From positions 20,149,201 through 20,213,200 of the forward strand of contig NC_092670.1 in the NCBI RefSeq assembly GCF_964355755.1: DNA of 64,000 bases. Direction: 5' to 3'. A program made the translations under genes and the position numbers. The notes below the pieces were generated by a model. That model was not told the DNA's origin. It saw only the letters and a list, made by a program, of their open reading frames with translations, and ran no database searches. This document shows, piece after piece, positions 8,162 through 64,000 of this stretch (position 1 is the first letter of the stretch; each line of letters starts with the position of its first letter). The DNA comes from Antedon mediterranea (lineage: Eukaryota > Echinodermata > Crinoidea > Comatulida > Antedonidae).

Positions 8162-11100
8162 ATGGAATACTTCAAAGTTGGTACTGAGTTTTCATCTTTT
8201 GCTGAGATAAAATCCCGAATAGAGCTTTTACAAAACACTACATATGCTCAATTTTATATTAAAGATTCCAGAACAATTGAGTCTGATTTAAAACGTAGAG
8301 TAACTCGAAGGTTTGTCAAACCTGAGCTGAAATATGTCAATCTGACTTTCTTATGTATTGCTGCTGGGAAATTTAAGTCCAAATCCAAAGGTTCTAGACC
8401 AAATCAGAAGTAAGTAAATCTAAGTTAAAAAAACTTATCTCAATAGGACCATATAGTATTTATTTTTACATTTACATTAGAATACATAATTAGATATAAA
8501 AAATGTATAGAATGGGACTTTAAACATCTAAGAACTGATTTTTACTTCAACCAAATAAGTTGTTTAATTTACTTTGTGGTGTTTCAGAACATTCAAACAA
8601 GATTGTCAAGCAGGAATCAAGTTATCAGTTTCGAAGGATGGCAATACCCTCAAAGTTATTAGCTTTATTGAGGATCACAATCATGAATGTACTAAGGTAA
8701 GGCTCTGTCTACACTATCAAACTTTATGTGACAATAAAATGTGATATGCCATGATGATGTCATATCACTACCATATTTAAGCATCACTACCATATTTGGA
8801 CACATCGCACTTTTTTTGTCAAACTAGTTTGATAGTTGAAAGGCTTACTGAACTGACTACCACAGTCTCAGATTATGATGTCACATGTTAATTAAGCTCT
8901 GTCAACCTATCAAACTAGACTAGACAAAAAACCAAATATGGTAGTGATATGATGTCATTGTGTCCATATGGGCACATCACATTTTTTTGTAGTATATGAA
9001 AATCAACGTTCCAGATACTTATAGCAGCAGCAGCAGGTTAACATCACCACGTTATGTCTCTTTTTATTTTAGCTTGGTTTTGAAAGTCTTCCTCAACAAA
9101 GACGATTGAGTGAAGCAGTGAGGGAAGAGGCTGTGAAGCTGTTTGAGATGGATTGTAACCGTAAGCAAGTGCAAAATCACCTACAGAAGATTACAGGCAA
9201 AGTTATTATAAGACGAGACATAACTAATATTAAGCAACAATTTATGAAGGATAAAACGAAAAAAAGCAATGTTGAAGAAGTTGTGAAAAAATTGAACAGA
9301 ATTCAAGGTGTGTTTTTTTCTATGTATAAAGCTCTGTCTACACTATCAAACTTTATGTGAAAAAAAAAATGTGATGTGCCCATATTATATGGACATGATC
9401 ACTACCATATTTGGACATATCACTACCATATTTGGACACAAGACATCCAATTTGTTATAAGCACATCCCTATTGATAATGAATTTGCATTGAGCAGTTCA
9501 AAATGTTTAAAAACCTAATGACATATGCTTTATTCTGTTTCTTTTTTGTCCTTGGTGTAAAGGTGGTTCATTTTAGAAGCAAATCGCTTTTTGTTCGTCG
9601 TCTTGTTGTAAATTTTTATTTTATTAATTAAAGACGTATTGGCCCCCTGAAAAATAATTTGTAAAATGTTTATTGTTGAATATGCCATTTTATTGTCGCA
9701 TAATAGTTATCCACACAAATTTGATATAAAAAAAATGTACAACAAACTGTAATTTAAAGCACAAATGGTGAAATTGGCATTATGTTATTTTATAAGTGAA
9801 AACATTGTTTTTTTTCTACGGAAGTGATTAACTTTTTTAAATAACCTATTCAAAGTCTGATTTAATTAATCTTCTTTTTTCATGTTTTTGGGGGACAATA
9901 CATCTTTAATTTAAATGTGATCTGAAAGTTTAAAACATTTTTGTTTATTATTAGGGTCGACAACTAAGGTTTCAGTGGATGATGATTATAACTTATTAGG
10001 AATTTATTACCAAGACAAGGTAATGAAGGAAGCATTTGCAGCCTTTCCAGAAATAGTTTTCATTGATGCAGTTGCAACTTACAAACTTGATGAGCTAAAA
10101 ATGCCATTTAACTTGTATATAATAGTAGGAGAAGATGGAAATGGCCAGAGTGAAGTATTTGCTACGTTTCTTGTTTCTAGTGATGCAAAACATGTCATCT
10201 CAAAGATGATCCAAACTTTTAAATGTCACAATCCCAACTGGTCAAAGGTTAAATCAATCATGACAGATAAGGACTTCACTAAAAGACACATTCTTGGAAA
10301 CGAGTTTCCAGAGGCAAATATAATGATTTGCCTTTTCCATGTTTTTCGTGTAATTCAACGGGAAATAACAACAAAGATGGGAATTAATCTTACTGAGAGA
10401 AACATCTGCTTAGAAATTATTCAGAAAATGGTTCATGCCAATTCTGAAGAAATATACGAGGCTGCGTACGAAGCATTGAAAATGACTCGTTTGTCGTGTG
10501 TTATACAGTATTTTGAAAAGAATTGGCATGGAAGCCATCATGAATGGGTTGAAGGTTTTAAGGGAGATGACTTGACCTTTTTAAACCGGATAAATAATAA
10601 GTTAAAAACTTTAAGTCAATTGGTCAATGAAGTTTGCCAACAGCAGTCAAGTCTTCACCAATTCTACTGTGACTTTTTATTCTTCTTAAAATCAACTAGG
10701 CAAGTCCATGACAGCAATTCTTTGAATAATGTTGGACATACTTGGTCAGTGGGCATTTGTCGGACAGGATCAGCAGAAGAAAAATATAAGGCATTGCTGA
10801 CACCATATGCTTTTATGTATGTGATGCAACAGTTAGAAGAGTTACCGAATAATGTAATTGTAGTTGAAGAACATCCAGATGGCCGCTACAGTATTGAGTT
10901 GGAATCCTCACATCTGAATGTTTCAACATCAGACTGTGAATGTGTTTTCAGGTATTTATTAGAGAACGGTATGGTGTAATAGTAAAAGGCAAGTGGGAAG
11001 CATGGGTTCGGGACCTGTCTGTGTCATATTGCTTGTATCCTTAATCAAGATATTCTCATTGATAACTGAATTTTTTTTATCATCAATTGACTTGTTATAT

Positions 11101-42000: not shown

Positions 42001-43212
42001 TCTAAACAATTGGTACGCAGTTGTCTGGCGGTGTCCTTTCCTTTGTACGAATCGTTCGTCCCCCAGCTCGCTGTGAGAGACGCGTCAATATCATGTTGAA
42101 TGCAGGGACCAAACATTTATTTTTCAGGTTAAAATCGGCAATTCATTTGCAACTCTTAGAAATTTACAGACTATATCGCTCGAAGTACGCTCATACAGGG
42201 AAGAAGGTACTGTATGAGTTATTCCGAACGAGTTTACGAATTCTTTAATTTACGAACAACTTTTTGTACTGTGGGGCACGTATTTGGACGATTTTCGGAG
42301 ATGAGGGTGAGGTATTGGGCATGTCGGGGATGGGGGTTCGCAGTCGGTTAAGGGGGGTTCGCTGTAAAGGGGGGGGGGGGGGGGGGGGGTTCGCCCGAAC
42401 CATAAAAACCCCCCCTGGCTACGGGCCTGAATTGCTTTGTAATATTTTGGAACTTAAGAAAGAGAAATGTTATAAGAGAAAGATATTTAATTTATTTGTT
42501 TTATGTTTCTTCAATACAGAATGTTTTTGTAATTTGTTTCGACTTGTCGAATCCAACATCATATGAAAATGTAAGTAAGCTTTGGTATCCCGAAATACAT
42601 GAACACTGCCCCGATGTACCGTTTATTCTAGTTGGTACAAAGTTGGATTTGAAAATAGATGAAGATGGGAATCCGAAAACAACAGACGATGCAAAGTGTA
42701 TTACATACGAACAGGTGATGATGATCTTTTATTGTTTATAGTTACATTTTTAATTGCTATTTTGAATGTTCATCTTTGACGGGAAGGGGTGTAAATGACG
42801 TGTTCTACGAAGCTACATGTCATGGTGTATCGCATAGACTTGGAAAAAAAGAAAAAACGAAAAAACTGTGTCGTCATATAGCTTTTCTGTTGTTGTTGTT
42901 GTCTTGCCATAACAGTGACATATACAGAGGAGAGTTTCCAAATGTTTAGATATTTAGTTTTTATATTTTATTTTACTAATATAATAATATATAGCGCATA
43001 TTCGTAATAAATAAAATTAGATTTTTAAAAGAAGACTTCTAATTATATATTTTTATTTTCAGGGTCAAGAAATGAAATCAAAGGTTGGTGCTCTCGGCTA
43101 TTTTGAATGTTCATCTTTGACGGGAAGGGGTGTAAATGACGAAGCTACATGTCATGGTGTATCGCATAGACTTGGAAAAAAGAAAAAAAGAAAAAACTGT
43201 GTCGTCATATAG
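39001..43212 (+). CDS. Atypical Rho-family GTPase, copy 1
   Basis: Five exons: 39001-39062, 39312-39383, 39613-39736, 42520-42714, 43063-43212; in frame to 200 residues. P-loop GDSAVGKT carries Ser where Rac/Rho/Cdc42 have Gly12, as in the Rnd and RhoH types. Switch I keeps YVPTVFDSY. Switch II is rebuilt: the usual WDTAGQEDY reads [11 protein letters not shown], keeping D-x-x-G but adding two residues and losing T58/A59. G4 GTKLDL and G5 CSSLTGRG are good. The C-terminus is polybasic and ends CVVI, a geranylgeranylation-type CAAX box. The last exon lacks nine bases encoding VFY that the sister gene has, removing part of the final helix. Intron 3 is 2.8 kb because of a transposon. Either a GTP-locked signalling protein or a decaying duplicate; no stop or frameshift is seen. 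Confidence 0.86.
40138..41812 (+). repeat. Tandem duplicate, about 380-bp unit, one unit interrupted
   Basis: Unit 1 is 40138-40297 plus 41217-41431; unit 2 is 41432-41812. Both start GCGAAGCAAATTTTGTTAAA and end GAGTACGTATCGG and are almost identical. Unit 2 is uninterrupted and preserves the empty site for the insertion in unit 1. Confidence 0.9.
40298..41207. mobile_element. MULE-like non-autonomous element, long TIRs and 9-bp TSD
   Basis: 910 bp. The terminal inverted repeats are about 145 bases: left GCGATTTTTTTTTTCGTACA and onward, matched almost base for base by the reverse of 41060-41207. The 9-base GTGCGGAAC is duplicated at 40289-40297 and 41208-41216. The neighbouring duplicate (near 41578) has this 9-mer once. 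Long TIRs with a 9-bp duplication are typical of Mutator-like elements; no transposase is encoded. Confidence 0.88.
42758..42951 (+). pseudogene. Partial duplicate of Rho terminal exon
   Basis: This stretch repeats the end of the last Rho copy 1 exon and its 3' UTR (TTTTGAATGTTCATCTTTGA at 42758, also at 43102). It lacks the exon start and an acceptor, and its reading is frameshifted near the polybasic tail, so no CAAX box is encoded. Unlike the used exon of copy 1 it still has the nine bases encoding VFY. It lies in the intron between 42714 and 43063. Confidence 0.85.
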
Positions 43213-43886: not shown

Positions 43887-45633
43887 ATGTCGCGAGTGAG
43901 TGTAAAATTGAAGCCGATTCGTATTCGGTGTATAACTGTAGGCGATAGGTAAGTTATGGCTAAAAAAACAAAGTGTACGTTCCGGTCTATGCTTAATGAG
44001 GCTAGACTTGAATACTGTATTGTATATGCTTAAGTTACATGTAGGTTTTCTAAATGCTACGACCATACAGTTACACGTTGCCTACACACATTATCCAAAA
44101 GGCCTAAATCCGATAAGAAATAAAAACTAATATGTAGAGGCCTATATATATGGAGATGTAATTTAATAAACTTTACTTTTTGTTTCTTTTTATTCCTCAT
44201 GTCATCAGTTTTGTTGGGAAAACCTGCCTCCTCATTCGTGAATGCAAACAATTGTTTCCTGAAGTCTACGTACCAACACAGTAAGTACACTGTCTACACT
44301 AACTTAGTATGACAAAAACAAGTGTGATGTGCCCAAATATAGTAGTGGTGTGCCCAAATAAGGTAGTGGTATGACATCATCATGTCCATATATGGGCACA
44401 TCACATGTTTTGGTCACATAAAGTTTGATAGTGTAGACAGAGAACATTTCAAAAAGTACGTCATGATTTGATTACAGTCAGTAGCCTACAATTTTAATTA
44501 AAATTTTTAGCTGTTGAAGTAAATTTAGTTAAAGTGATAAAGCTACCCTAACATGCCTACAATACCTTGATTACAAGTACGACACTTAAACAAAATTAAT
44601 TTAAAATTATTTGTTTTATACAGTAAATAAAAAAACAATTTGAGAAACTAGACATTTAGAGATTTATGATTGACGATAAAAAATGTTGTGCCTTATATAT
44701 TAGTTAATTAAGTTAATTCGAGCATCCATGGTTTACGTATTTGTAAGTAAAGTATGTTGTGATATATAAATTAAACGAAATTGTATTATGTACAGGTTTG
44801 AAAGTTACGTTCATGAAATCATATTGGATAGTACAGTTGTGGAAGTACAGACAGAAGACGCCCGTGGCGAACAGGAAGATTACGCAAGGTTACGCCCACT
44901 GTGTTATTTTAGAGCGGTAGGTATCACATAGCCTATGTCTTACTTATTTTAAATTACCAGACCAATTGTACTATTTCTAGTTCTTATGGTTTTGTATTTT
45001 TGATTGCAAACCAATACAATAGATATAGAAATACAATAGAGATATTGTTTATGATCAAATACCACTCAAACATTGATTTTGTTTTTCTTTAAACAGAATA
45101 TGTTTATTATTTGTTTCGATTTGTCGAATCCAACATCATATGAAAATGTAAGTAAGCTTTGGTATCCCGAAATACATGAACACTGTCCCGATGTACCGTT
45201 TATTCTAGTTGGTACAAAGTTGGACTTAAGAGAAGATGAGGACGGGAATCTGAAAAAGACAGACGACGGAACAAAGTTTATTACATACGAACAGGTAATT
45301 TTTTTTTAAATTAAATTTTAATTAAATTATAACGACGGACTTATAAGCCAGTCTCTACACAAAAGTAAACCAATAACGATTTGATTATTTATCTCTTAAA
45401 AATTAAATTACAGCCGTGTAGGCCTACTTTTTTTTAATTAAAAAATGTATTTTATTTATTTTGTTTATTTTCAGGGCCAAGAAATGAAATCAAAGGTTGG
45501 TGCTCTCGACTATTTTGAATGTTCATCTTTGACGGGAAGGGGTGTAAATGATGTGTTCTACGAAGCTACGTGTCACGGGGTATCGCATAAACTTGAAGAG
45601 AAGAAACGTACGAAACATTGTGTAGTCATATAG
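43887..45633 (+). CDS. Atypical Rho-family GTPase, copy 2
   Basis: Five exons: 43887-43948, 44209-44280, 44796-44916, 45097-45294, 45475-45633; in frame to 203 residues with the same intron positions as copy 1. P-loop is GDSFVGKT (G12S and A13F relative to Rac). Switch I reads YVPTQFESY. Switch II reads EDARGEQEDYARLRPL: D-x-x-G kept, T58A and A59R, one residue inserted before Gln. G4 GTKLDL, G5 ECSSLTGRG, insert region REDEDGNLKKTDDG, tail KKRTKHCVVI (CAAX, predicted geranylgeranylated). The VFYEAT helix missing in part from copy 1 is complete here. All introns are short. Gly12 replacement predicts poor GTP hydrolysis; whether it binds nucleotide is untested. AATAAA lies near 46012. Confidence 0.9.
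44286..44442. mobile_element. MITE family A copy
   Basis: ACACTGTCTACACTAACTTAG at the left; TTTGATAGTGTAGACAGAG at the right; hallmark ATATATGGGCACATCACAT. It begins 5 bases after the second exon of Rho copy 2. Confidence 0.82.
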
Positions 45634-46502: not shown

Positions 46503-49500
46503 ATGTCAATTTTCAAGTTTTCAATCTGGATAATTTTTACAATCCTCTTTCAAGGTAACTTTCAATTTGTGTTTTTTTGTTGGAATTTTAATGTTTTCGT
46601 TTCGAGAAACTAAAATCAATCAGTTACTATTAAGTTTATTCACTTACCAACCTTGGGTCTGAAATAAACAACACAATCAAAAAGATCTGAAACACAATCA
46701 ACTGACCATTTTGTTGTTTTGCAAATACTGAATCAATATTAGGGCCTATGCATATGATTTTAATAATTTCAAAATGACATTTGGCAAGAAGCTGTCGAAC
46801 TCGGACAAGTTCAGTTATTTTCTCCCCTCCCCCTATCCGTAGTATTTCTCGTGTGTTTCGAAGCAAGTCAAGGTCAAATACCAACAATTCAAATCGAGAA
46901 CCGAAACCACGGCGTTAAAAATTCAGCCATCCCTACAATAGTTATGCTAAATTAAATAGTTCATATAGAGACAACGTGAACGACATTTTTGTACCTTTTT
47001 ATTCGTTTTTATTGTATTTTGTATTGTAATTTAAATTGTACAGTAATTTTGTAATCTTTTGTGGTTCACCACCACCTTTATTCATTTAATGTTTCATTAC
47101 ATAATTTCTATAGGCCTAGATTTTCTACTTTCTTTTCAATATTTTCTATTTTTCCTTTTTTAATAATAATATAGTTTTTTTTATACCTAAACAAATAAAT
47201 AAATAAGACCAGTTTATTTTGTATATGCTATATTGTAAATAAACAAATGTCAGCAAAGTAATTTACTGTAGGTTGCTTACTCGATCGTTTGTAGAATAGT
47301 ATTTGAAAGGTTGCTTACTCGATCGTTTGTAGAATAGTATTTTGATAGGGTTTTCTAAAATGTGGCACGGACAAGCCAAACCAGTCGGTTGTCGGTAATC
47401 CCCGAACTGAGATACAGCCTAGAATAGTCAAAATCACGTCGACAAAAACAAAAATAATATTTTATCGATTAAATCTAACCTTTATGTATTCTAGAATCAT
47501 ACTATGTTGTTATTTTTTTTTAATTTTCCAACTAAAACAAGTAAAACAATACATTTTGTTAGGCTATGTTTTTGTAAGATGTCGGTCTGGCTTGTCCATG
47601 CCACAAATAAACAAACAACGTATTCCTTTAGGAACGGATGTCGGCGGTGAAGATTTTAAGATAGAGGCACTCGCATAGACAATAACCAATTATTCTATTA
47701 CCGGAACGGGATTATGAGAACCAGCAGAACATTTTGTCAAAACCAACTACTTGGTTTCTGCAGTATCATGTCTCCGACAACAAGCCCATGTCACAGCATC
47801 TAACTCCTAAATATTAACTTATCTTACCCTATATTAGGCCCTAAATAATAAATATCACTACGTCTACATTGCATTATCCAAAATGGGATAAAGTTTTCTA
47901 TCAGACTCGATACTGCTGTGTGTTTATTGTCACTGACATACTGCTTGTGTATCGAGTAGTTTAAGGCTGTTGGGATGGCAAGGGCGTAGGCCTAAGTGGA
48001 ATATTTAATTTAGGGTTAGGCGTGTTGTATGATATCACTCACTTTCCTGATAACAACAAATGCTCCTATATGACAACATGTTGTTGTTTGTTAATTTAAT
48101 CATTAAGGCGATAAATATTAGTTTTAATTATTCTAAAAGATCATTAATCTTTATTATGCGTGTTCTATTGTCCTTCGTGTAGTATTTCTCAATAATAACG
48201 CCTACTTATTGTTAGATTTCACGGAACATCTTTGAAAAGAAATGGTTATGTTATACTGTAATATTAAATCTAATTTTCATAAGAATAACTGGTATTTTTT
48301 TTCAAAAAAAGAACTATATTTTTCCTTTCTTCTGTGGCTTATTCACCATCCATATTTTAACATTTAAAATAATTGTGTATGAAATAACAATATTTGAATA
48401 GACAGGTTCCTATCTGACAACGAATGACGATATTGTATGCCACACTACATATTTTTCATTTTATTTGATTTGTGAAAATATTATTCTATTCATTGAAGAG
48501 AGTATAAATGTTTGTCCCATTGTTCTAGAATGATTTCACATAATTTATTTTGGTTTTATTTGTGAGAAAATGTATTTATTAGTTATTGTCGGTATACGGG
48601 CCTGTCGCACAATTCTTTTTGTGAGTGTATACATCTATTTCCACCAGGTGTTTTCTGTACGATTCTTGGTATCCTGATTTGTTGTGTATAGTTTTATTTG
48701 TTTTCTATGGATATGTTATCAGCATTTATTATGGCATTCCGATATAAAAAAAATGAATGAATGAATAATTTTGATTATATTTGTCGGTTTGCTTCACGAA
48801 GAAATCATTGTTAAAATTGATTTTTTTTAGTTTGTTATTAAGTTCTATCTTGTCAATTTTAACATCTTGTACACCAATGTAAACTAGGCCTATAACTATT
48901 CGTTTTCGTGTATAATTTAGGACTATATTGAAAAAGGATCTTTACTCACATACCAGGTTTTTAATTTAATTTTAGCAAAAGCCCAAGAAAACACCACTAC
49001 AAATGATTCGAACTTGCAGGACAACAAGGTCAATAACACATTGTCGATGACAACTATGGAATATGGTAAGCATTAAACATAACAATATTTTCACGTATAA
49101 ACTCTGAAAATAGCACATTTTTCATCCATATGTTTTCATAAGGGGTACTCACTGACTATTCAATACAATAGGCCATATTACATTCCATTTTATGATCTTA
49201 AGTGACTTATATAAAATGATTATTATCAATACGGTATATTAACAATATTGTTTATTATAAATAAAGAGGGGGCACTAAAAAGGATAGTTACTAAAGACAA
49301 CGGAACGCATTGATAATAAGGCTATACTCTTTCTACAAACAAATAGCTATTGAGTTGTTTTTTTAAAAAAAGGAGGAAAAAGAAAATGTTTGATTGTATT
49401 TATTATTTATTGATGTACATATTACAATACCGTATGTGATGTAAATGTATGAATGATCTCTTGTGCAGAGATTTTTAAGATTACTGAGAAACTTAATATT

Positions 49501-52500
49501 TATGAAAGAAAATATTTATAGATTTAAAAATCCAAAGGCAAATTACTGAAAAAAATGACAATGCTGTGGGTATCAGTGGCTGAATCTCAATGGAGATACA
49601 AAAAAAAAGCGAAAAGCTAAATCAAAACGATAAAGTAAACAGCCAGAAAAGTTAGCAGAGCTTTCGGGCAACACTAGCCCTTCATCAGTGCAAGTGATTT
49701 AAAATATATATACAAAAACTTAATAAGAATAGAAAATAAACAGCAATTTAAATTGCAAAGAAAGTGTTTTTATCAAAAGAATTATGTAAAAATTATGTTT
49801 TGAAATGGAAATTAAGGTGAGTGAACCTCACAAAAGACGAACAATAATATATAAAACAATATTGTTTGTATTAAACTACGTTTCGATCTTAGGAGTTACA
49901 ATTCAAGAGGATACTGTGACAGAAAACTATACGTTGACCTCCGAGGAAATTACTACTGGTAGGCCTAAACCTACCGAAGATATGACTACCAGTAGGCCTA
50001 TCATATCTACAACACTAAATGAATATCCAGGTACGAATGACTCACAACTCATAAGCTAGGCCTATCACAAGTGTATTTCAAAAAGTGTAAATTAATCATG
50101 AATTCAACCTTAAAATTAAACAAATCCTCTTCCCGAAAAAAAAAAATTAATTCCCCTTAAAGTGGATCCTTGACAATAAATAGGCCTATGTTTTAACATT
50201 ACAGGAAACACTGGTATTAAAGGGGAACTCCGAAGGTCTCAACAATTTCGCCATAATAGGAGTACTTAACGTTAAAATTAACGAATACTCTTCCCTGAAA
50301 AACAATTTGAATTCTTGACAAAGGAATACAAGATCTTACTCTTGCTGATGTCATGAATTTTTATTAAAACAACTGACATCCCATTGCATTTTACCTAATT
50401 CTTTCATTTTTCTTTAAATATCATTATTCTGCGTCTAGCTTTCATTCATTCATTCATCTTTTATTTCGGAAAAAAAAGTAATTCTTCATAGCTCAAGAAC
50501 AAATTAGTGTCTACATTATTATAATTCTAATGGTTATTTTGTGACGAGGGCCCATAACAAAATAGGTCGAATAAAAACAACTGCCTAGCTACCGTTACGG
50601 CCTTCTTCGGCTCTTTCACTATTCGGCCCTTTACCATTTTGCTCTTTCACCATTTTATACGGCTCTTTTACCATTACTTTTGACACTTTTACCATTAATT
50701 GTTATTGATCTGTTAATTATAAAGAGAATCAGAAGTAATTTGCAATGTTTGTTTTCAGAATGTTTCCATTTGGAAAATGCAGCCGATTACCGTGGCACGG
50801 TAAGTGTTACACAAAGTGGCAGAGCATGTCAGTACTGGACGTCACAGTCTCCTCACGAGCATGGGTATAGCGATGAAACGCATCCAAACACGGGCCTAGG
50901 AGACCACAACTATTGTCGCAACCCAGAACCGGATGAACAAACTTGGTGTTATACAACAGATCCAGACGTTAGGTGGGAGTGGTGTGATGTTGGACAACCA
51001 AATGTAAACTGTGCTAGTAAGTTGAATTTTATTTATAATTAAAGCAACCATAGTACAAGGTATTTTAAAAAAAACGTCTAGCTAATTTTACATCTTTGAC
51101 AGAATCAGAAAACAAATCAAGCGATTCTATCTGTATACAAAAGGATACTGTATCGTATTTTTTATTTAAATGTTTCTTGTAGTTCAATCTATATCATCAA
51201 TCATAGAACTACACATGCTAACAAAAACACTCAATCAGCCTAAGATTAAACTTTGTGTAGGTTATATAATTTATTTTAACATTCCTAATCCTAGTTTACA
51301 GTATACATAATTTCTTCCATTTGCATATATATATATATACTCATAACATTAATCAGATTAAAGCTCTGTCTACACTATCAAACTAGTTTGACAAAAAAAA
51401 AGTGTGATGTAAGTAAGTAATATTTATCAGTACAATTTATAAAACAGCATAAAATATGAATAAAAATAACTAGAATAATACAACAAATATTTGGAAACAT
51501 GGAAAGCAGGGGATTACCCTTTAAGCTCAAAGGCTTGTTTCCATAGGGATCCCCAAAGATGTGCCTCCGACTTTAAACTTGCTGGCTATCTAAATATTAT
51601 AAATAGAGTGAATCAACTGCAACTCAATCATATTTTTAATTTAATGCACAATTTCTCCCCTGTGTATATGCGTGAAAACTTTTTGAAAGTTTCAGAAAGA
51701 CATCACCATAATACAAGGGGCAGCATACACGATTTTGTAAACATTTATAAAAAATCCAGTTGCATTGCTTCTACTTTTTTTTATAATAAAATAATTCTCT
51801 GGAATAGTTTGCCTCCGAATATCAAAGAAATTAATTTAAAGTCCACCTTCAAGCTTCATATAAAGAAAATCCTCAAAGAGCGAATTGACTAATTTAGCCT
51901 TTTCTCACTTCCTGCCGTCTGCTGATTAATTGTTTATTTTTCCTTTGTTTTTTCTTTCGGGACCCCTCAGGATACAAACCTCCGGGTTTAGAGGGTTATC
52001 CTTTGCTCCTACTCGTTGTATGTTGTTGTCTTTGTTCTGATTTTGTTGTTTGTTAAGTCTGCGACTTTTGATGTATATATATATATATATATTTCTGTAC
52101 CTCTGTTATTTTTATATGAGCAAGAAATAAAAACAAACAAACAAACCTAAATATGGTAGTGATATGCTTAAATATGGTAGTGATATGCTTAAATATGGTA
52201 GTGATATGACATCATTATGTCTGTATATGGGAACATCACAATTTTGTGTTACATCAAGTTTGATAGTGTAGACAGAGCTTTAGTATCACTAATCTATATT
52301 CTTTCAGGCTGTAGTGAGACGTTTAATGGAACTGAGGGCCGAATTACGTCCCCCTCTTATCCAGCAAATTACGAAAACGACCAACAATGTGAATGGACAA
52401 TACATGTAAGTTTATAAATATGATAACAAATGGTCGTCTGGTTTTGTCACCTTTTTATATATTTTGAATATTGAATTTTTATTTAATATTGTTAAGAGCC

Positions 52501-55500
52501 TGTATTAAAAGGTTACACGCAATCTGGCCATTGGCCATAAGTTGTAAACTCTGTCTACACTATCAAATTAGTTTTGTTTTTTTGGTGTCACAAAAGTGAC
52601 AAAGGTTATGTAGTGGCTTAACGTTGCTATATTGGTAATTGCTAATAGATGCAGATTAAAAATGTTACTAATTCTGTCATTATTTTGACCAATAGGTGCC
52701 AGATGCGTATGTTGTACAGATAGCCTTTGTATTTTTTGACGTTGAGTTTCACGCGCGTTGTACATATGACTATCTTGATGTTTATACAGAGGGGATTAAC
52801 GACGAACAATACGATTATAGGTAAATAACATGAATCATATTACATTTCTACAAATTGTCATTTATTAGTGCTTATTACTGCCTAGTGTGGGTTCCAGACG
52901 GAGTTTTGACTTAATATTAGTAAAAAGATAAATATTTTGGCACATATGGCGTTTTATACGTGTACTACTTTTCAGGAAAAAAAATCGAAGCGTTGACTGA
53001 TAAACTAAGACAATAATACAGACTTGGGGCAAGTGTAATTACTGCTGTAAAAATATAGTTACTGAACTTTCGATATTTTAAATTGAATACTGTTCGATGG
53101 ATTTGAATAACTATGCTGGTATCATGAGCTATTTATTATATAGATTTAACAGTTAATTAAAACTATGAAACCTAGATATATACTGCAGCATTAAAAAAAT
53201 GTGTATACGTATAAACTCTCTCATATTTTTTTTAATAATAAAAAATCAATTCGTATAATTTTATCGATTAATATAGTCATAATCAGTTTTTTTTCTCAAC
53301 TTACAGGTTCTGTGGTACTACTGCCTCGCCAGTAATTTCAGAAGGGTCTACACTTGTATTAATTTTTACATCTGACAATATTTACAATAACAAAGGTTTC
53401 GATATTAGATGGAAAGCTATCAAATTGGGTAATTTTGTTTTATTCATCTATTTAAAATAATACTACAGCGGTGGATTATTATTATAAATAAAGTCTCATA
53501 TGAGGCTTAGGGAGGGGAGTTGAAAGAGGCGTGAGTTACAACCACCCTGACACTAGGTCAGGATTGAATCTCGGATGGAAGGCAAGCATATTAACCACCA
53601 CCGCTCCATGAATTGAATTTGTAGGCCTACTTTCCAAATAGACATTTATCGCCTATGTTTTCCAAGTAAAGATGTCTTACTTATGGAGGCCTACAGTAGA
53701 CACATACTATATATGGGGACCCTTTGCAGTAAAAAGAATGAATGACGATAAATATTTTTTTAACACTACAGGGAACACCCTTATTAAAGAAGTACTCCGA
53801 TGGTCCCAAAAAGTTCCTTTTTTAATAGAAGTGCTAACTGTATATCGTTAAATTCAGCAATACACTTTTAGACTTCGTCTATTTCTGTCTACACTATCAA
53901 ACTTTAATGTGTCAAAAAATGTGATATTATATGGACACGATGATGCTGCGACAGAGCTTTAGGAACAGTAAAATCGTATTTTATAACCACACGCGTCGTC
54001 CACGAATCTTCGTCACCCACTGGTGAAATCATACCTACCTATTATATTTCATTACCAGCATCGATTTTTTTAATGGGAAGCATAGGTATATTTTGACGAC
54101 TCTTTAGATGAATATCAATATCTAATACTGTATACAGTCAAATGCATACATAATTGTAAAGTAGTCTCTGATTATTATTATTAACGATATAATTAAAACA
54201 CCACGTGTAATGGCAATTACACACACAACAAAGCGATATAACCATTAGTTAAGTGTTCTCTAAATTATGCCTGCGATTGTGTAGTGATTATTTTGTAACA
54301 GTCAAATAGTGACACACAATTGTTAAGTAAACTATAATTATAATTAACAACGAAGAGCAACGAAATGTCTGAAATTACAGACACAGTGTAAACGTTACGT
54401 ACACAATTGCCTAATAATTGCCTAAGTACAATTTGTTTCTATTTGCACGGACGGGTTTGCGCGTTTGCTCTTTCATCGTGCAAATAGCCGTCATATGCGT
54501 AACTGCTTAGTTAGAAATAGTGCAATTATCCCTATTTTCTTTATCACTTAACTTTCTTCTTTAGGACTACTTTCCAAGTTCAAGCCAACGAAACAAAGTA
54601 GTGCTTATGCTGATGCACATCCGTATGGCTCAGAGTTGGCTGTTGATGGACATTATAGCTCGAGATTTGAAGACGGTTTCTGTTGTCACACAGGCAAGAT
54701 AGTCTTTAGCAGCATCAATTTTCATATAAAAACATGAATATTTAAATCTAGGCAGGGCCGTAGTCAGCCTGAGGCAGATGAGGCGCTTGTCTTGTCTAAA
54801 ATTTTTGAATGTTCACCACCCACCCCAATTCCCCAGCACAGATCGTCATATTTTCTATAGGCCTAAACAATATTTAAAGCACCATTTTCTCGTCTGTTTT
54901 TAACCTCTCGCTACGGCCTTGTCTAGGCCCTACAAACAATAACTGTTGGTGAGATATTGGCAATGAATAATTAGCATTATTCATGATATACAGTATTGTA
55001 TATATAATGATAATACTGGTTTGAACATTTTTCCCTAAGGTGGAAATGCTTATCTCATTATGTTCAATTTTACTGCTAAAGGTATAGACCTACATTTTGT
55101 GATCGATTGATTAATATTGCTGAAGAAGAAAACATAATTTGATCCGACAAAAGTAGTGTTTTTCACCAAATACATTTTAGTATAATCACTAATAAAGTAC
55201 ATTATTTTATATATAGATAAAGATTTTGAACCATGGTGGAGAGTTGATTTGGAGAAAGCATTCGCCATCCGATTTGTAGATATTATCAATCGCAATTCCC
55301 ACAGTAAGAATTTATACAATATTATCTATACATTAAAATGATATTAATTTACCAATTTGTGACAATAAATTTGAACTGGTGCTTCCATATAATTGGTGAA
55401 AAAATTTAACGTTAAATATCAAATTAATAACTTAGATTAAAGATTCATTGTTGTAACTAGGCCTACCATACACCCATTTCCTCCTGCATCACATATGAAG

Positions 55501-58500
55501 TCTTTGTTGAGTTTCGTTTAACGACTTTTTTTGTGCTTTTAGCTGATCGTCTAGTTAATACTGAGGTCCATGTCGGTATGAATCCAAATCCCTTCAACGT
55601 GAATCCACAATGCGGCGCGGCATTTACGAACGCCGTGGCGGCAAACATGTTCATCAGAGTAGAGTGCGGTGAATTATTACACGGCCGTTATGTGTCCATT
55701 TATATTCCTGGCGTATCTCAATATCTAACGTTATGCGAGGTGCAAGTATACGGCTTAGGTACGTAGCTCTCTTTTTGGTTTAAAGTACAACTTTGTAATA
55801 AAGCGGAAATGGTGTTTGATGATTTAGGCAATATTGATGACGTAAATAAAGAAGTGAATTCCAATGCGCATTTAATGTAGGCCTATACTGTAATTAACAA
55901 AACGGATACAGTTAATATTAATAATTTAATATCTAGAACAATATTAAATGAATATAGTATGAATTTTATTAATGGTATAATGCTTAACGACCAGGTGCGG
56001 GCAAAACATTTCTATTGATCATATATTCCAATAATCACCAGACATGTTATTACATTAGGTTAAACTAACTAACTACTGAAAAAATGTCTTCCTGGTTTTT
56101 ATAGCAGAATTTTGATAATATAATGTTGTATTTGACCATTTTAAGGGAAATTTTTCGTCTTGATTTCTATTACAAATTTTCGATTTATGTACAATTAACC
56201 AGATATAAATTTAAAATAGTGTGTAAATTTAAAGATAATACGCATTGCATAAGATGCTTGGTTCCCACTCGGAGGCCACGCAACTGACGTAAGCGCACAG
56301 CAATTAATTTGACCAATCACGACGCGATGGATCATCCGAACTGTCGCTTGTGATTTGTCAACTCACTTGCGTTGTACCTACGTCGTTGGGCTACGTCCAA
56401 AAATTGGAACAAGGCATTTATGAAGAATTTTCATTGTCAGATACTTGTCTGGTAGGCCTAATACTTGGCTGATTAAAGGAAAAAATGATGGTCTTTTCAC
56501 CACTTTTCTTTCTGTTATTATTCAAGATTGATATGCATTTTAATAATTAGATATTGACAATTTGCCAAGTGGAATTGAGGTTGAGGATAATGAATGCAGT
56601 TTCTCACCAGGACCTTGTGATGATCCATCAATTAATTGCACGATTCTTAACGCTGATTGGCCATCGTGTCGTGAGTATATATTTCAGTTAATTTCTTATT
56701 GACTTGTGCAAGTTAAATTGTATTAAATTTAAATCCTCATCTATTTCTATTTTACATATTTCATTTATGATTTAAATTATGCGTGTCATGGCCTACTTTT
56801 TTTAGTGAGACATCGCCATATAATTTAATTATGTTGTTTTTGCTCCACTAAAAATTCAATACATTAAATTAAAGCCTAGCTACTGCATGACGCAAGCAAG
56901 TTTATAACCAACATGTCAATAAAACAAATGCTGGTCACTGTAATTGTATAAAATTTCCCCAATGTTTTCTTATGTTCTTTCTTCTGTTTTTTTAGGGTAT
57001 GTATATTAGTTAACTTTTAATTGTTTTCTTCTAGTTTGTATTATCCTTCACGTGTTCACACACTGAATACACACAACATACACCCATACACACACACACG
57101 CACACATTAAATTACACACAACATACACCCATATACACACACACGCACACATTAAATTTGACCTTTTATTTCCATTCTATATCCGACTTCTGAAATAAAT
57201 AATAAAATAATATTGCAGTATCCATATCAGTCTATCTTGTAACCCTGGGTTATTATTCTTTGATTGTTTTTAGGGTGGGTTACTATTAGAAGGGGTTACT
57301 GTAGTGGGTTACTATTACTAATCTTAAATTAGGCACCTGAAAATAGTAACCCACTCCAACTTTTCCGGTCAGCAACTCATAGTAAAATAATAAAACAGTA
57401 CAAATAACTAAATTTGTTTGAACTCTAACTTTATTTTATAATCTTAAAAACACTAAATCCTCCCCACTCCCGAGATCAACATGCATTATCTCCTTTTTTT
57501 TTTCAAAATACGGCTGCATCATAAACGACCAGTCTTCATAAATGTCGTTTTGTCAATAGTTTTTGTGACCCTAATATTAACCCCTATGGGTTACTATTAG
57601 ATTAGTGGGTTATTATTATAGATTAACTTATAAGGGGGTTACTATTAGAGTGTGGGTTACTATTAGAAGATTTACGATATAGTAACTTTTTGGTTATATA
57701 TATTGTACAGTTTAAGTATTATGTATTTCCATACAGATTTAATTAATTAATTAGTTTACATATTGTTTTGATGTTATGTATTAGTTAAAACTTTGTGGCT
57801 TATGTTATTTGTAATTTTGTCTGTAAATTAGATGCACCATTAACTGATAAATGTGTGCCACCGATATAAAGGTCATTCCTATGAATAAATAAAAATTAAT
57901 AAAACTCATGAAATTTATCTCTTGAAATTAACACAGTTTGTGGTGTGATATGATATGAATAACTATTAAATAACAATAATCCGTCTATTTTATTATTGTT
58001 ATTTAGTTCATAGTGTGAGAGGTTTTTGAAATTGCTTTTTAACAACTAGGCCTATAATTTCTTGTTCAATTAAATACATATTCGATATTTTATTGTCCAT
58101 AATGTTTATATTTATTTTGAATTTTTCAATTTTATAGCTATTTGTTGCCATAAAGAAATATTGATTTTTAGGCATTTTGACACTCACGTCTCTATAATAC
58201 CGTAAAGAAATTGATACTGTTTTTTTCTTACTGTTAAGCTAATCTATTCTATGTTATTAGAGTGTGACGAAACTATGTTCAAATGCAATAATGGTCGCTG
58301 TGTTCCAATGATGTACCGATGCAATATGTACGACAATTGTGGCGACTCAACTGATGAATATTCATGCGGTAAATTTGTTATTTTATTTTGATAATTGTAA
58401 TGTTTATTATTTTTCATTAGGTTATAAATATGAATTACAATATTATAACTATTGATAGTAATCACCTTAAATGTTTAATAATTGCTGTAATTATGAATAT

Positions 58501-61500
58501 TGTAGTATGGATCTACTCTATCAAAAATGTATTAAAATGATGTAAATTGTATATTTTCCGTCCAGCACTGCAGACGCCAATATGATCGATAGATAATTAA
58601 TATTTAAATATAATACAAGAATATAACAAATTACAATAACAATCATAACATACATAAATTATTTATTTGTCCAAAAAACATAACAAAATTCAATCAAATA
58701 ATAAAAAATGGCTTGTTACGAAAAGTAGAGAGGGCCAATATAAATACAATTAAATTTATCACAAGGGATGATTAGCTGGGAATCACGCGAATCGTAAGCG
58801 TCAGCTTATACGCATACGTATAGAGGGATTTGGAAGATTAAAAAACATGCGTATAAGTTGACGCTTTTGATTCGCGCGAACAAATTCGGCTAGAAATAAT
58901 GTAGGTGCAGTATTAGCCATATAATGTAGAGCGGTTACTTGTTAAAAGGTTAGTGGTACTGTAATTACCGAATTTCCTTCAGTTATACGACACTGAAACA
59001 AAATCAATACCAGTATTCATCCTTAAAAGTGTATTGTCCCCCTGAAAAAAATAATTTCTTCAAAAAAATGTTGTTGAATATTCTATTTTAATGTAACTTA
59101 ATAGTTATCCATTTTGATCAAAAATTGGATCGAAAAAAAATGTATTTACCTGAAAAAAATGTAATTTAAAGCAAAAAAATTGTGAAATTTGGTTGAATTT
59201 AAAGATGTATTGTTGTCCCCCTGAAAAAAAAATTGTTACAATTTTTGTTGTTGAATATACCATTTTAATTAATCTTTATTTTTCATGTTTTTGGGGGACA
59301 ATACATCTTTAACCATTTATTTGTCATTTTATAAGTGAAAAATTTTTTTTCCGTTTTTTAGTTGCGAGGAAGCGACTCTATAGTTCACTATGTCGGTCGG
59401 TCGGTCTGTCGGTCTGTCGGTCTGTCTGTCGGTCCGGTATCACTATGCGTTTTATCGCTTTCTGAACTTATCTTGATATCAGTTTAATCTAGCTAAGTCA
59501 ATTTTTCACAGTATATTCCTTATGGCCATGAATCGATGTGGTTATGTTTTCACGGTGCGCAATAAAAAATTACGCGGTCTACGCACGATTTAACGAAATC
59601 ACGTTTGTAATCATATCTTCACAACCATGAATCACAATTAAATAAAATTTGGTACTCATAAATTTCAGGGCATAAATCATCATATGGCAATACAATTACG
59701 TGCGTAGCGCATGTAACGCATGCGTACTCGCGCTTAAAATTTTCACAATTTATTTTCGATGAAATAAGAGTACGTTTCAGGCAATTTTAAGCGTTTACAA
59801 AATTGCCATGAGTCACAAAGCCACAAAGTTACGTGCGCACGCGCATTTAAAATTTTAAAATGCGCAAAATTCATTTTTAATCAACTTTCTACGCGTTTCT
59901 TGTCATTTTGAGCATGTTTTTGCAGCCTTTTCTAATAATTTTACCATCTTTTAAACAATTTTGACTTAAAATTACGTCATACGAGCACGTCGAATTGGAT
60001 AATTTGCGCACGTTTTTGATGAAAAAGTTTAAAAATTCGTCAAAATTATGCTTTTTTAGTCGCGTGGACGCGACTATAGTTCACTATGTCGGTCGGTCTG
60101 TCTGTCGGTCTGTCTGTCTGTCGGTCTGTCTGTCGGTCCGGTATCATTGTTTTCTATGGAAGTGATTACCTTTACAAACTACAAAATAACATATTCAAAG
60201 TCTGATTTAATTAATCTTCATTTTTCATGTTTTTGGGGGACAATACATCTTTAAGATATATGTCTAAAGTGTGACCATGTACCCAATCATGGTGGTGATG
60301 TGTCCAAATATGGTAGTGATATGACGTGTCCATATATGGGCACATCACATTTTTTTGTCACATAAAGTTTGATAGTGTAGACAGCAAGTCAAGAAGATAT
60401 GCTCATAATGTAGGCCTTATTTCAGAGTGTGAAATGGACTCATCCGTCTGTTTAGAATCAAATGGCACAAGATGTATTGTATCACGGTTTGTCTGTGATG
60501 GATTCGATAATTGTGAAGATTCCTCTGACGAGCATTCCTGTAGTAAGTCTTTTCAACCAGGGCACATCTACTCTTGAACCTGATGTTTCCTCAAAGTATA
60601 AATTAACAGTAGGCCTAAAACGTAGCATGACGCATGAACTCATTTGAACCGTGTGCTAATTGATCGTGTGATGGTTCTTCTTCTTAGTAAAGTAGGCCTA
60701 CGATGTCTACAGTTTGAAAACTCTTCCGTTAAAGATCTGATGTCCACCTGAAAAGATAATTCTTAACTAATGTTGCTGAATATGCTATTTTATTGTCACA
60801 TAATAGTTGGATCGACAAAAAATGTATTTACCTAAAAATTTGTAATTTAAACAAAAAGTAGTCTGCCAGCAATGGTATTTTGTCATTTTATAAGTGAAAA
60901 CATAATTTGTTCTGTTTTTTCCTACGGAAGTGATTAACCGTATTAAAACTACAAAATAATATAGTCAAAATCTGATTTTATTAACCTTTATTTGTCATGT
61001 TTTTGGGGGACAATACATCAAGTGTTAATATTGATTTAATCCTACTTTCATAGTAATATTATTCATTAATAATATTCCAATTATTGTATAGCTTGTGGCA
61101 AAGACGATTTTGTGTGTAGCGATGGAAGATGTTTAGCCTCCAGTAAAGTTTGTAATAATTTACCAGAATGTCAAGACGAAGAAGATGAAGGAAATTGTGG
61201 TAACAATTATTCTTTGTTTCTATTATTAGAATTTCGTTACTTCATCATAAACACGTCAACAAAACACAAGCCTACCGACATCATAGTGACAACAACAAAA
61301 TAAATGGTTAAGATCTTTTTGAAATAACCATAATGATGAATATTGTAGATGATTAATATGATAACAAAAGGCCAACTCAAACAGCATCGTACGACGAGGC
61401 CCGACGAAACGGCTTTGACTCGTCGGTGCTGTCTGAGTTGAATCCCGACGAGACGAGTAGTCTTGAGATAGCGTCGGGCGTAGTTTTTAGGTATTCGGGA

Positions 61501-63868
61501 GAACTTTAAACATGTTTAATTTTCTCCCGACGAGACGGTTTGTCGGGCCTCGTCGTACTCGTCTTAGTTCTTTTTAAGATAACAAAAGATGAAAAATAAT
61601 ATACAATAATAAAATAGTGATAAATTGTGTAAGTATATACGTTCAATAAAGACTTTTTTAGGAATGTGCTACATTTTCTCTTTGGTACCGTATCGTACAA
61701 TCCAAAAGTACCTTTCTTCTGGAACATTTCAACCGAGGAAAATATTCCATCATGTGCTCATTTAAGTATTTGTTTGCTTCAAAGTGTTACATTGCATTAC
61801 TTGAAAATTGGTATTATTTGCACATTTAGTGACTTGTGACGGCGCTCCAGTCCCGTTTTCCCAGCTCTGCGACGGTAAATACGACTGCACAAACAGAGAG
61901 GACGAGCTTAACTGTGGTAAGCAATTGAAGTAGTTTAAGTCTAGAACACATTTTTACATAGTTTAGTAAAGGATATATTAAACATGTTACCACTGTTTTT
62001 AGGGATACACAATAGATCGATATAAAAAAGCAACAAGATGGCTGCGTCTAACACGTGATTTACATTGTCTTTTAGCGTATTGTCCAAGTGCTTATGAACA
62101 ATTTAAAGGAAGTTGTTACCACTTTAAACTGGACGTGGGTTTATCATTCACCGACGCGCAGGATTACTGCAGTGGTAAGGGTGGCTATTTGGTGGTCATT
62201 GATTCTGAAGATGAAAATGTATATATTACACAATCTATGGTGGATCTTACTGATAAGGTAATTTTAACGCTCAGTAATACTAACGTACGTATGTTGACGT
62301 CACAGGCCCGTTCAAACGTTTTTTTTATTAACCCTGGTATGTTGATTCTTACCCATCAAAGCTAGCGATAACTGCGTTCATGAAACCAACTTGCCCGGGT
62401 AAATAACTAAACATGAACAGGCCCTACAAAAGTTATGTGAAAATAAGCCTAAAGATAAATGTATAAACTTCCTGTATATAAACAGGGAGATCTCCCTGAT
62501 ATAAAGGGCTTTGAAATAAAATAATAAATTCAAAGTTAACTATGTTCTTTGAATTTAAATTACAGACATATGTTTGGATTGGAATTAATGATATAGAAGA
62601 GGAAGGTATTTGGGTACCTGAAGCTCCCATGTTTACATCGTACACAAGTAAGTTACTATACTACTTATACTTACTTATAAATAAACTTATATACAAAAAC
62701 ACGTGTGCAAGAGATCGTTTAAATTTGGCGGAAACCCGTTAGATGAATAGGATGAATCCATTAGGATAGAGGGGTGCTAAGTTTAGCACTGTGGAGTTTT
62801 TTTTCTGTCTGGACTATTTCAGTTGAAGGATCTTATCATTCTAGCCCCTATGTTTAAAAAAACAGATCCCAGCCTTATTGGTCTTGGTATTGGTAATCCA
62901 TCCTAGTATCCATTTATTATGTCAATATATAACTAATCAACATGAATGAATACATGAATATTACCTACCGTACTTACTTACACTAGAATTACTGAGTTTG
63001 TTTTACATTTAGATTGGAATCCAGGACAACCAGACAATTATGTAAATTACGATGGAGAACACTGTGCCCACCTTCAAGTTCAGAATGGTAGAGGTGGATG
63101 GAACGACATACCGTGTTCATTCAACTACATGGGAACCGTTTGCGAGTTTCGTAAGTAAAAAAAAAATCAATAATAATTATATTTATATTCTTTATTTTTT
63201 TAACAGTGAATCATCGCCACTAACAGGTTGTTCAAAATCTTCATAAAACTACTATAGATAAAAAATTTAATTCATTAAAACAATTACTGCAGTATTTTAA
63301 TGTTGACTTGTATTCAATAATCAATTCATTCATTTAAATCTATTTAGCTATCATCCTGCATGTTACAATGTCAAAGTGCATTTGTACATCTAAAGCTCTG
63401 CCTACACTATCAAACTAGTTTCACAAAAAGTGTGATGTACCCAAATATGGTAGTGAAATGCGCGCCCAAATATGGTAGTGACATAACGCCATCGTGTCCA
63501 AAATCACACAAATTTCATAGTGTAGACAGAGCTTAACAATATTTTCTAATTGTTAATAGAACCTGTTAGGTTAGTTGGAGGGGACTCATTGATTGATGGT
63601 TTTGTTGAAATATACAATGATGGAAGCTGGGGGACAATCTGCAGTAAGGATTGGGGCACTGTCGAAGCAGATGTTGTCTGCAATCAGCTGAATTTGCCGT
63701 ATAGTGATCCTCTAAAATGCTGTGATGCCAAAGTTCAACATAACACAGGAAGGCACTACGACCAAGTGTCTTGCACTGGAGAGGAGTCTTCTCTGAGTTA
63801 CTGCAGTTCAAAAGTTGAGAAAGGAAATTGTCCAAATGATCTGGACGTCTGGGTTAAATGTTCAAACG
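46503..63868 (+). CDS. Secreted mosaic protein: kringle-CUB-F-lectin-LDLa-C-lectin-SRCR (3' partial)
   Basis: Nineteen exons visible, about 855 residues, continuing beyond the window: 46503-46554, 48976-49065, 49893-50030, 50759-51016, 52308-52405, 52696-52820, 53307-53428, 54565-54693, 55217-55303, 55543-55758, 56551-56670, 58261-58368, 60426-60542, 61092-61199, 61830-61916, 62076-62257, 62566-62647, 63013-63150, 63560-63868. Signal peptide (IWIIFTILFQAKA), then a Thr-rich glycosylatable stretch to residue 93; kringle 94-179 (YRGTVSVT, CRNPEPDEQTWCY, WEWC); CUB 179-294 (FCGTTASPVISEGSTL); F-type lectin 295-438 (WWRVDLEKAF, GRYVSIYIPGVSQYLTLCEV); Cys-rich linker; LDLa repeats at 479-514, 515-553, 554-589 and a shortened fourth at 590-618; C-type lectin 619-752 (WIGIND, QPDNY, WND); SRCR 753 on (GSWGTICSKDWG, DVWVKC). 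Domain borders are phase 1 introns. One intron uses a GC donor at 54694. The full domain order matches no protein I know; kringle plus SRCR recalls neurotrypsin (PRSS12), so a trypsin domain may follow. Confidence 0.87.
46555..48975. other. First intron of the mosaic gene
   Basis: 2.4 kb, AT-rich. It contains a tandem duplication of GGTTGCTTACTCGATCGTTT at 47272 and 47311 (39-base unit). Nothing else recognised; small open frames lack domains. Confidence 0.55.
49555..49700 (-). mobile_element. Penelope-like 3' end with hammerhead-like motif
   Basis: Reverse-strand match to 7842-7965 of the element near the left of the window, including the core CTGATGA (complement near 49684-49690), stem II and GAAA. 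The last part reads GCCACTGATACCCACAGC in sense. It lies in the second intron of the mosaic gene. Confidence 0.85.
51361..52282. mobile_element. MITE family A split by a LINE insertion
   Basis: Left half 51361-51411 (AAGCTCTGTCTACACTATCA through AAAGTGTGATG). Right half from about 52146 (AAATATGGTAGTGATATGC repeated, then GTTTGATAGTGTAGACAGAG). The 734 bases between are a 5'-truncated LINE. The right end lies 25 bases before the CUB exon acceptor. Confidence 0.88.
51412..52145 (+). mobile_element. 5'-truncated non-LTR retrotransposon (LINE) 3' end
   Basis: An open frame at 51491-51892 encodes the C-terminal tail typical of LINE reverse transcriptase proteins (RVNQLQLNHIFNLMHNFSP, HNTRGS, LWNSLPPNIKE, STFKLHIKKIL). 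It is followed by a 3' UTR and ends in an AATAAAAACAAACAAACAAAC tail. 5' truncation and a simple-repeat tail are classic for target-primed LINE insertion. The clade (CR1/L2-like) is a guess. Confidence 0.85.
53883..53962. mobile_element. MITE family A, short remnant
   Basis: TTCTGTCTACACTATCAAAC at the left; GCGACAGAGCTTTAG at the right; about 80 bp, interior mostly deleted. Confidence 0.7.
54756..54923. mobile_element. Short CAGGGCCGTAG-ended element
   Basis: Left CAGGGCCGTAGTCAGCCTGA; right CTCGCTACGGCCTTG. The ends resemble those of the 2.4-kb element at 40034, so it may be a small relative. Mosaic gene intron. Confidence 0.6.
56255..56417. mobile_element. MITE family D, diverged copy
   Basis: TGCTTGGTTCCCACTCGGAG at the left and AAAATTGGAACAAGGCA at the right, with ACGCAACTGACGTAAGCGC and TTGACCAATCACGACGCG inside as in the copy at 35753. 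Mosaic gene intron. Confidence 0.75.
56671..58260. other. Mosaic gene intron with GGGTTACTATTAG repeats
   Basis: 57055-57151 is two tandem 45-base units rich in ACACACAACATACACCC. 57245-57675 has dispersed GGGTTACTATTAG and TAGTAACCC words in both orientations, forming an inverted structure of about 430 bp, possibly a mobile element with degenerate ends. The rest is AT-rich. Confidence 0.5.
58774..58905. repeat. Inverted-repeat element
   Basis: Arms GAATCACGCGAATCGTAAGC...GTCAGCTTATACGCATA and ATGCGTATAAGTTGACGC...GATTCGCGCGAA pair over about 40 bases, giving a long hairpin. Probable small MITE; single copy in this window. Confidence 0.65.
59203..59308. mobile_element. Short family B MITE inserted in another family B MITE
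   Basis: About 106 bp with AAGATGTATTG...CAATACATCTT ends, flanked by TTAA at 59199-59202 and 59309-59312. Other copies read GAATTTAACCATTTATT without interruption here, so the empty site is known. Confidence 0.88.
59355..60146. mobile_element. Element with direct terminal repeats (TCGGTCGGTCTG)
   Basis: Two same-orientation repeats of about 90 bases (about 59359-59452 and 60058-60145). Each has a short GCG...CGC hairpin (GAGGAAGCGACTC / CGCGTGGACGCG), then ATAGTTCACTATGTCGGTCGG, a variable TCTG/TCGG run, and GGTCCGGTATCA. About 600 bases lie between, with no open frame. Class unknown. Confidence 0.75.
60262..60385. mobile_element. MITE family A, left end lost
   Basis: AAATATGGTAGTGATATGAC, CATATATGGGCACATCACAT, then GTTTGATAGTGTAGACAG. 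The preserved right end lies about 40 bases upstream of the second LDLa exon. Confidence 0.8.
60729..61024. mobile_element. TTAA MITE family B copy
   Basis: TTAAAGATCTGATGTCCACC at the left and GGGGGACAATACATC at the right, with the conserved CGGAAGTGATTAACCGT block. It lies between the second and third LDLa exons. Confidence 0.85.
61370..61572. mobile_element. GACGAG-rich inverted-repeat element
   Basis: Left CGTACGACGAGGCCCGACGA pairs with TCGTCGGGCCTCGTCGTACT-type sequence near the right end. Internal CCCGACGAGACG words recur three times. About 200 bp between LDLa exons; no coding capacity. Confidence 0.75.
63392..63536. mobile_element. MITE family A copy next to SRCR exon
   Basis: AAAGCTCTGCCTACACTATC at the left, two AAATATGGTAGTGA words, right end TAGTGTAGACAGAGCTT. 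The right end is 24 bases from the start of the SRCR exon. Confidence 0.88.
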
Positions 63869-64000
63869 GTATGTCTGGAAACATTTTCCATGTATAATGT
63901 TGTTTAACACCCAAACCTATATAGTTTACTATACCCCTATAACCCCTATTAAGGGGACACCTTCAGGACCTAAATAATTTCCCTCAGAATAAAGTTCCGC

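Follow-up and report, generated by a model that had tools for sequence, protein, structure and literature searches.

The 19 exons lying between positions 46503 and 63868 are the first part of a single gene, whose product is predicted to be a GRL101-like LGR (type C) with a long, lectin-rich ectodomain. We refer to the whole 64,000-nucleotide stretch of Antedon mediterranea DNA that was analyzed (C1:20149201-20213200) as the window, and we used the 354-Mb assembly, composed of 18 contigs, as search space. Exons were joined by hand on the exact sequence, and a further 30 kb downstream of the window was read in the same way. The complete gene consists of 41 exons and 40 introns, spans 31.0 kb and encodes 2,289 residues, with a TAA stop at C1:20226700, approximately 13.6 kb beyond position 63868. 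The sequence-only reading of this DNA had placed the right-hand limit of the gene at 63868, which merely reflects the edge of the window: the intron that follows fills positions 63869-64000 (+) and the gene carries on outside. That reading had also described the product as secreted. Because its open frame extends into a 7TM domain, the protein is not predicted to be secreted, and the secreted lectin was discarded.

Exon structure and reading frame

All window exons lie on the + strand. Exon 1 (46503-46554) carries the start codon and the signal peptide (MSIFKFSIWIIFTILFQ), identified from the open frame, the splice sites and, by eye, the hydrophobic N-terminus. Exons 2 and 3 (48976-49065 and 49893-50030), which are of phase 1-1 and flanked by GT/AG sites, encode a Thr-rich stalk, and exon 4 (50759-51016) encodes a kringle (Pfam PF00051, 2.2e-22; genome match at C1:20199973). 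CUB1 is formed by exons 5 to 7 (52308-52405, 52696-52820 and 53307-53428; PF00431, 1.3e-25) and recurs in a paralog on contig C4. The F-type lectin domain occupies exons 8 to 10 (54565-54693, 55217-55303 and 55543-55758), resembles the solved structures of FBP32 and the eel lectin, and is present in paralogs on C4 and C5, which also keep the Cys-rich linker (ECSFSPGPCDDP...C) encoded by exon 11 (56551-56670). LDLa1 to LDLa4, again found in both paralogs, correspond to exons 12 to 15 (58261-58368, 60426-60542, 61092-61199 and 61830-61916; PF00057, 3.6e-23 over four stretches), the last of them being a shortened module. Exons 16 to 18 (62076-62257, 62566-62647 and 63013-63150) form C-type lectin 1, or CLECT1, as indicated by Pfam (PF00059, 4.2e-16), sequence motifs, solved structures and the C5 paralog. 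Exon 19 (63560-63868) is SRCR1 (PF00530, 1.9e-19; 43% to the C5 paralog). The domain list and order proposed earlier were thus recovered in one frame, except that the linker between the F-type lectin and LDLa1 had been overlooked, and the combination of F-type lectin, C-type lectin, SRCR and kringle in one continuous chain was borne out, well beyond what chance would produce.

Hand splicing of these 19 exons returns a single open frame of 855 complete codons. Over the whole gene, AG is found at all 40 acceptors and GT at 39 of the 40 donors, the only exception being a GC donor at 54694-54695. All 40 exon junctions are phase-matched: single-exon modules outside the LRRs belong to class 1-1 and the LRR exons to class 2-2. 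The two alternative frames of the joined coding sequence contain 116 and 214 stops.

Beyond the window, the frame continues through SRCR2, CUB2, CUB3, a second C-type lectin (CLECT2), LDLa5-11, LRRNT, LRRs, the 7TM domain and a kinase-like tail before the stop. Pfam matches in this second half are Ldl_recept_a (8.7e-40), 7tm_1 (3.9e-30), CUB (1.7e-22), SRCR (6e-20) and LRR_8 (1e-15). The LRR region opens with the LRRNT cap, followed by one odd exon and by four clear 72-bp exons of one repeat each; the 7TM domain lies wholly within one exon of 1,013 bp, and two tail exons complete the gene. The ectodomain therefore comprises a kringle, three CUB, an F-type lectin, 11 LDLa, two C-type lectins and two SRCR modules ahead of the LRRs. 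A further SRCR had been anticipated downstream and was indeed found as SRCR2. A trypsin domain had been envisaged there too, which would have made the product a lectin-guided protease; Pfam detects no trypsin in the complete 2,289-residue frame, and a neurotrypsin-like protease was ruled out. What the gene shares with neurotrypsin and the SRCR-kringle proteins is the use of kringle and SRCR modules in one chain, but the Antedon chain ends in a 7TM domain and has no protease domain.

Several other elements were also seen. Two near-identical tandem exons of the Rho GTPase family lie immediately upstream (42406-42741 and 45055-45633, both +; Ras, 1.9e-10 and 1.1e-11), and the window also hosts a MULE/ZSWIM-like transposase frame (9921-10979, +; 1.1e-34) and an exon of a GRF zinc-finger protein (369-1379, -; 1.6e-11). 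Downstream of the gene we found a reverse-transcriptase frame (L010:7242-8471, -; RVT_1, 3.8e-22), and beyond it a MAP2K-like kinase gene. A P-element-like transposase frame was noted at L011:685-1221 (+; TNP-like RNaseH, 1.7e-20). Phage records, searched as a control, returned no match.

Paralogs and the extent of the gene

When the assembly was searched with the 7TM domain, about 69 GRL101-like exons were identified at a minimum identity of approximately 45%, some of them partial, which revealed a large, partly tandem family. The SRCR, CUB and C-type lectin families are also very large in this genome, with at least 150 matches each. We read the sequence upstream of the two closest 7TM matches, located on C4 (80%) and C5 (63%). 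The C4 paralog shows the order CUB1, F-type lectin, Cys-rich linker, LDLa1-4, CUB3, CLECT2, LDLa5-11, LRRNT, LRR, 7TM and tail; CLECT1, SRCR1, SRCR2 and CUB2 are absent from the upstream sequence that was read. The order in the C5 paralog is F-type lectin, linker, LDLa1-4, CLECT1, SRCR1, SRCR2, CUB2, CUB3, CLECT2, LDLa5-11, LRRNT, LRR, 7TM and tail. The Cys-rich linker is 59% conserved in C4 and 65% in C5 over 17 residues. For several ectodomain modules, conservation between paralogs matches that of the 7TM domain (77%), with LDLa1 reaching 86% and LDLa8 89%.

The occurrence of the same module order at three unlinked loci strongly supports a single gene. Together, the two paralogs cover every module except the kringle, the signal peptide and the Thr-rich stalk, which are assigned to the gene by intron phase and the open frame. 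The single-gene interpretation, which could have failed had the modules been separated, holds from CUB1 and the F-type lectin onwards, and separate genes from the F-type lectin onward are excluded. Hand splicing might instead have wrongly joined two adjacent genes further upstream, one for a kringle protein and one for a receptor running from CUB1 and the F-type lectin to the 7TM domain. We consider this very unlikely. The kringle was found in neither the C4 nor the C5 paralog, the C5 stretch examined yielded no CUB1, and the intron between kringle and CUB1 contains a frame (51479-51892, +) that by eye resembles the C-terminus of a LINE reverse transcriptase, as an old retroelement piece would, with no reverse transcriptase match in Pfam. 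However, the phase 1-1 kringle exon fits the frame without introducing a stop, and CUB1 adjoins the F-type lectin in the C4 paralog. Moreover, among the GRL101-like 7TM exons of contig C3 (at 6.97-7.17 Mb and 3.18 Mb), seven are preceded on the same strand, at a distance of 5-12 kb, by kringle and SRCR exons, as judged from the positions of unspliced matches. These seven probably represent a second mosaic subfamily and indicate that kringles may join the GRL101-like family.

A secreted mosaic could also derive from a short transcript ending in the lectin part, produced with or without the membrane form. The signal peptide and the long extracellular run would suit such a product, and alternative polyadenylation could generate it. 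Since the frame, the exon phases and the order of modules in the paralogs all extend into the LRRs and the 7TM domain, and since the frame lacks trypsin, we regard this as extremely improbable.

The receptor core, its tail and the lectin sites

Among solved structures, the LRR and 7TM part of the protein is closest to RXFP1 (PDB 7tmw, 1.1e-69), followed by TSHR, LHCGR, FSHR and LGR4. In the 7TM domain, NPxxY (as NPYLY) and CWxP (as CWFP) are conserved, and DRY reads DRA. In a 7TM tree that contained only the Antedon paralogs and RXFP1, the RXFP1 branch is very long. RXFP1 has one LDLa and, unlike the Antedon receptor, possesses neither a lectin mosaic nor a kinase-like tail. The rhodopsin-type 7TM domain nearest to relaxin/LGR receptors, the LRRs lying directly before it and the presence of 11 LDLa exons, rather than the single LDLa of RXFP and type C1 receptors, correspond to the layout described for GRL101 and type C2 receptors, namely many LDLa, LRRs and a relaxin-type 7TM (PMC8286064, PMC4079206, PMC11863921). 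The comparison with GRL101 was made through this published layout, and it marks the predicted product as a GRL101-like receptor, putatively of type C2.

The cytoplasmic tail, of approximately 143 residues, shows weak kinase similarity over helix E and the catalytic loop. Its match to Pkinase (0.0015) lies below the Pfam cut-off, and among solved structures it matches VRK3 (4.3e-4), which is a pseudokinase. Tails are recognizable in the C4, C7 and C5 receptors, and the same part of Pkinase is matched, weakly and in each case independently, by those of C4 and C5. Across paralogs the HRD-like motif reads HGD, HGT, HGL or HGH, which means that the catalytic Asp has not been retained. The tail comprises neither a complete kinase domain nor a conserved catalytic Asp, and an active kinase was excluded on account of its short length and the loss of this residue. 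For the first tail exon, AlphaFold returned a model with a mean pLDDT of 55; the similarity to kinases is sequence-based. In the 7TM tree mentioned above, which is rough, a clade of 12 other sampled paralogs (support 88/100) excludes the tail-bearing receptors. Our reading is that the tail may be a fragment derived from a pseudokinase.

The lectin modules differ in their predicted ability to bind sugars. At the position of the F-type lectin, Pfam reports F5_F8_type_C_2 (2.4e-9); we assign the match to the F-type lectins because its best matches among solved structures are FBP32 (3.4e-48) and eel agglutinin (8e-17). The fucose-binding motif of this family is HX24RXDX4(R/K) (PMC5712786). In the Antedon domain it is degenerate, reading RNSHTDR: the His and the first Arg are kept, Asp is replaced by Ser and the loop is one residue short. 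CLECT1 carries QPD at residue 712 and WND at 736, the calcium and galactose-type set, while CLECT2 has EPK and WKE instead of QPD/EPN and WND. One canonical sugar site is thus predicted, in CLECT1, and sugar binding by the F-type lectin and by CLECT2 is uncertain.

Proposed function and comparison with known receptors

We lean towards a glycan- or microbe-sensing GRL101-like GPCR, with a role in immune or environmental recognition served by its N-terminally extended ectodomain. The lectin-rich arm would capture a glycan-bearing or large particulate ligand, such as a microbial surface or a self glycoprotein or lipoprotein, away from the membrane. Binding would then shift the hinge between LDLa and LRRs, and the 7TM core, like that of RXFP1, would activate a G protein. 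Given the loss of its catalytic Asp, the tail would serve as a scaffold. A pattern-recognition role, already suggested by the sequence-only reading, remains plausible, as part of a GPCR and not of a secreted lectin. Rather more doubtful is the broader proposal that the GPCR family consists of direct pattern-recognition receptors, whose lectin and SRCR arms would bind microbial glycans and signal directly by way of the 7TM core, one subfamily being coupled to a pseudokinase-like cytoplasmic tail.

A receptor for an endogenous ligand, such as an insulin/IGF-like peptide, a lipoprotein or a matrix glycoprotein, with the additional modules used in adhesion, capture or cell-cell contact, is a credible though less probable reading. 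The LRR and 7TM parts match hormone receptors, the LDLa modules are strongly conserved, and Veenstra proposed that GRL101 is an IGF receptor (PMC8286064). The conservation of LDLa1 and LDLa8, comparable to that of the 7TM domain, is as compatible with an endogenous ligand as with a pathogen, and as evidence on the type of ligand it is neutral or favors the former. On the other hand, a peptide ligand would need neither three lectin-type folds nor two SRCRs, a large and partly tandem family resembles recognition receptors more than hormone receptors, and the genes for snail GRL101 receptors with C-type lectins sit in a parasite-resistance locus (PMC12297450).

This snail locus, SudRes2 of Biomphalaria sudanica, is a region linked with resistance to schistosomes and hosts ten GRL101-like genes that combine LRRs, LDLa and C-type lectin (PMC12297450). 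Its products share with the Antedon receptor the LRR-7TM core, the LDLa, an N-terminal C-type lectin, the organization in a clustered multigene family and a proposed role in recognition. The Antedon receptor adds a second C-type lectin, the F-type lectin, the kringle, three CUB and two SRCR modules, 11 LDLa and the kinase-like tail, whereas the association with schistosome resistance has no known counterpart for it. GRL101 from Lymnaea stagnalis, an LGR of type C2, likewise has many LDLa repeats, LRRs and a relaxin-receptor-like 7TM, but it is described with 12 LDLa and six LRRs and without any lectin, CUB, SRCR or kringle module. The Ciona LDLRR-GPCRs (PMC2396169) are a comparable lineage-specific expansion with a relaxin-receptor-like TM region and LDLa arrays; they differ in having no LRRs, and lectin modules are not reported for them. 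Veenstra's survey of ambulacrarians counted one GRL101 per species (PMC8286064), as compared to the about 69 related 7TM exons detected here. In the open-access papers searched, we found no report of an F-type lectin, SRCR, CUB or kringle on a GRL101 receptor, nor of a kinase-like tail; proteins of this kind may well be present among automatic annotations. Because lectin-bearing GRL101 GPCRs have already been published, the Antedon receptor does not constitute a new receptor category.

A partial reading of a gene of this kind can be misleading, as it returns a 'secreted lectin'. Pattern recognition in invertebrates is usually credited to Toll, scavenger receptors and soluble lectins. A large family of GRL101-like GPCRs, some of them equipped with lectin, SRCR, CUB and kringle modules, would contribute a further class of receptors, in which the binding of microbes or glycans is coupled directly to G proteins. 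Considered alongside the SudRes2 locus, this family suggests that lectin-bearing GRL101 receptors are old or have arisen more than once, and the genes defined here make GPCR-based recognition of glycans and microbes a testable question.
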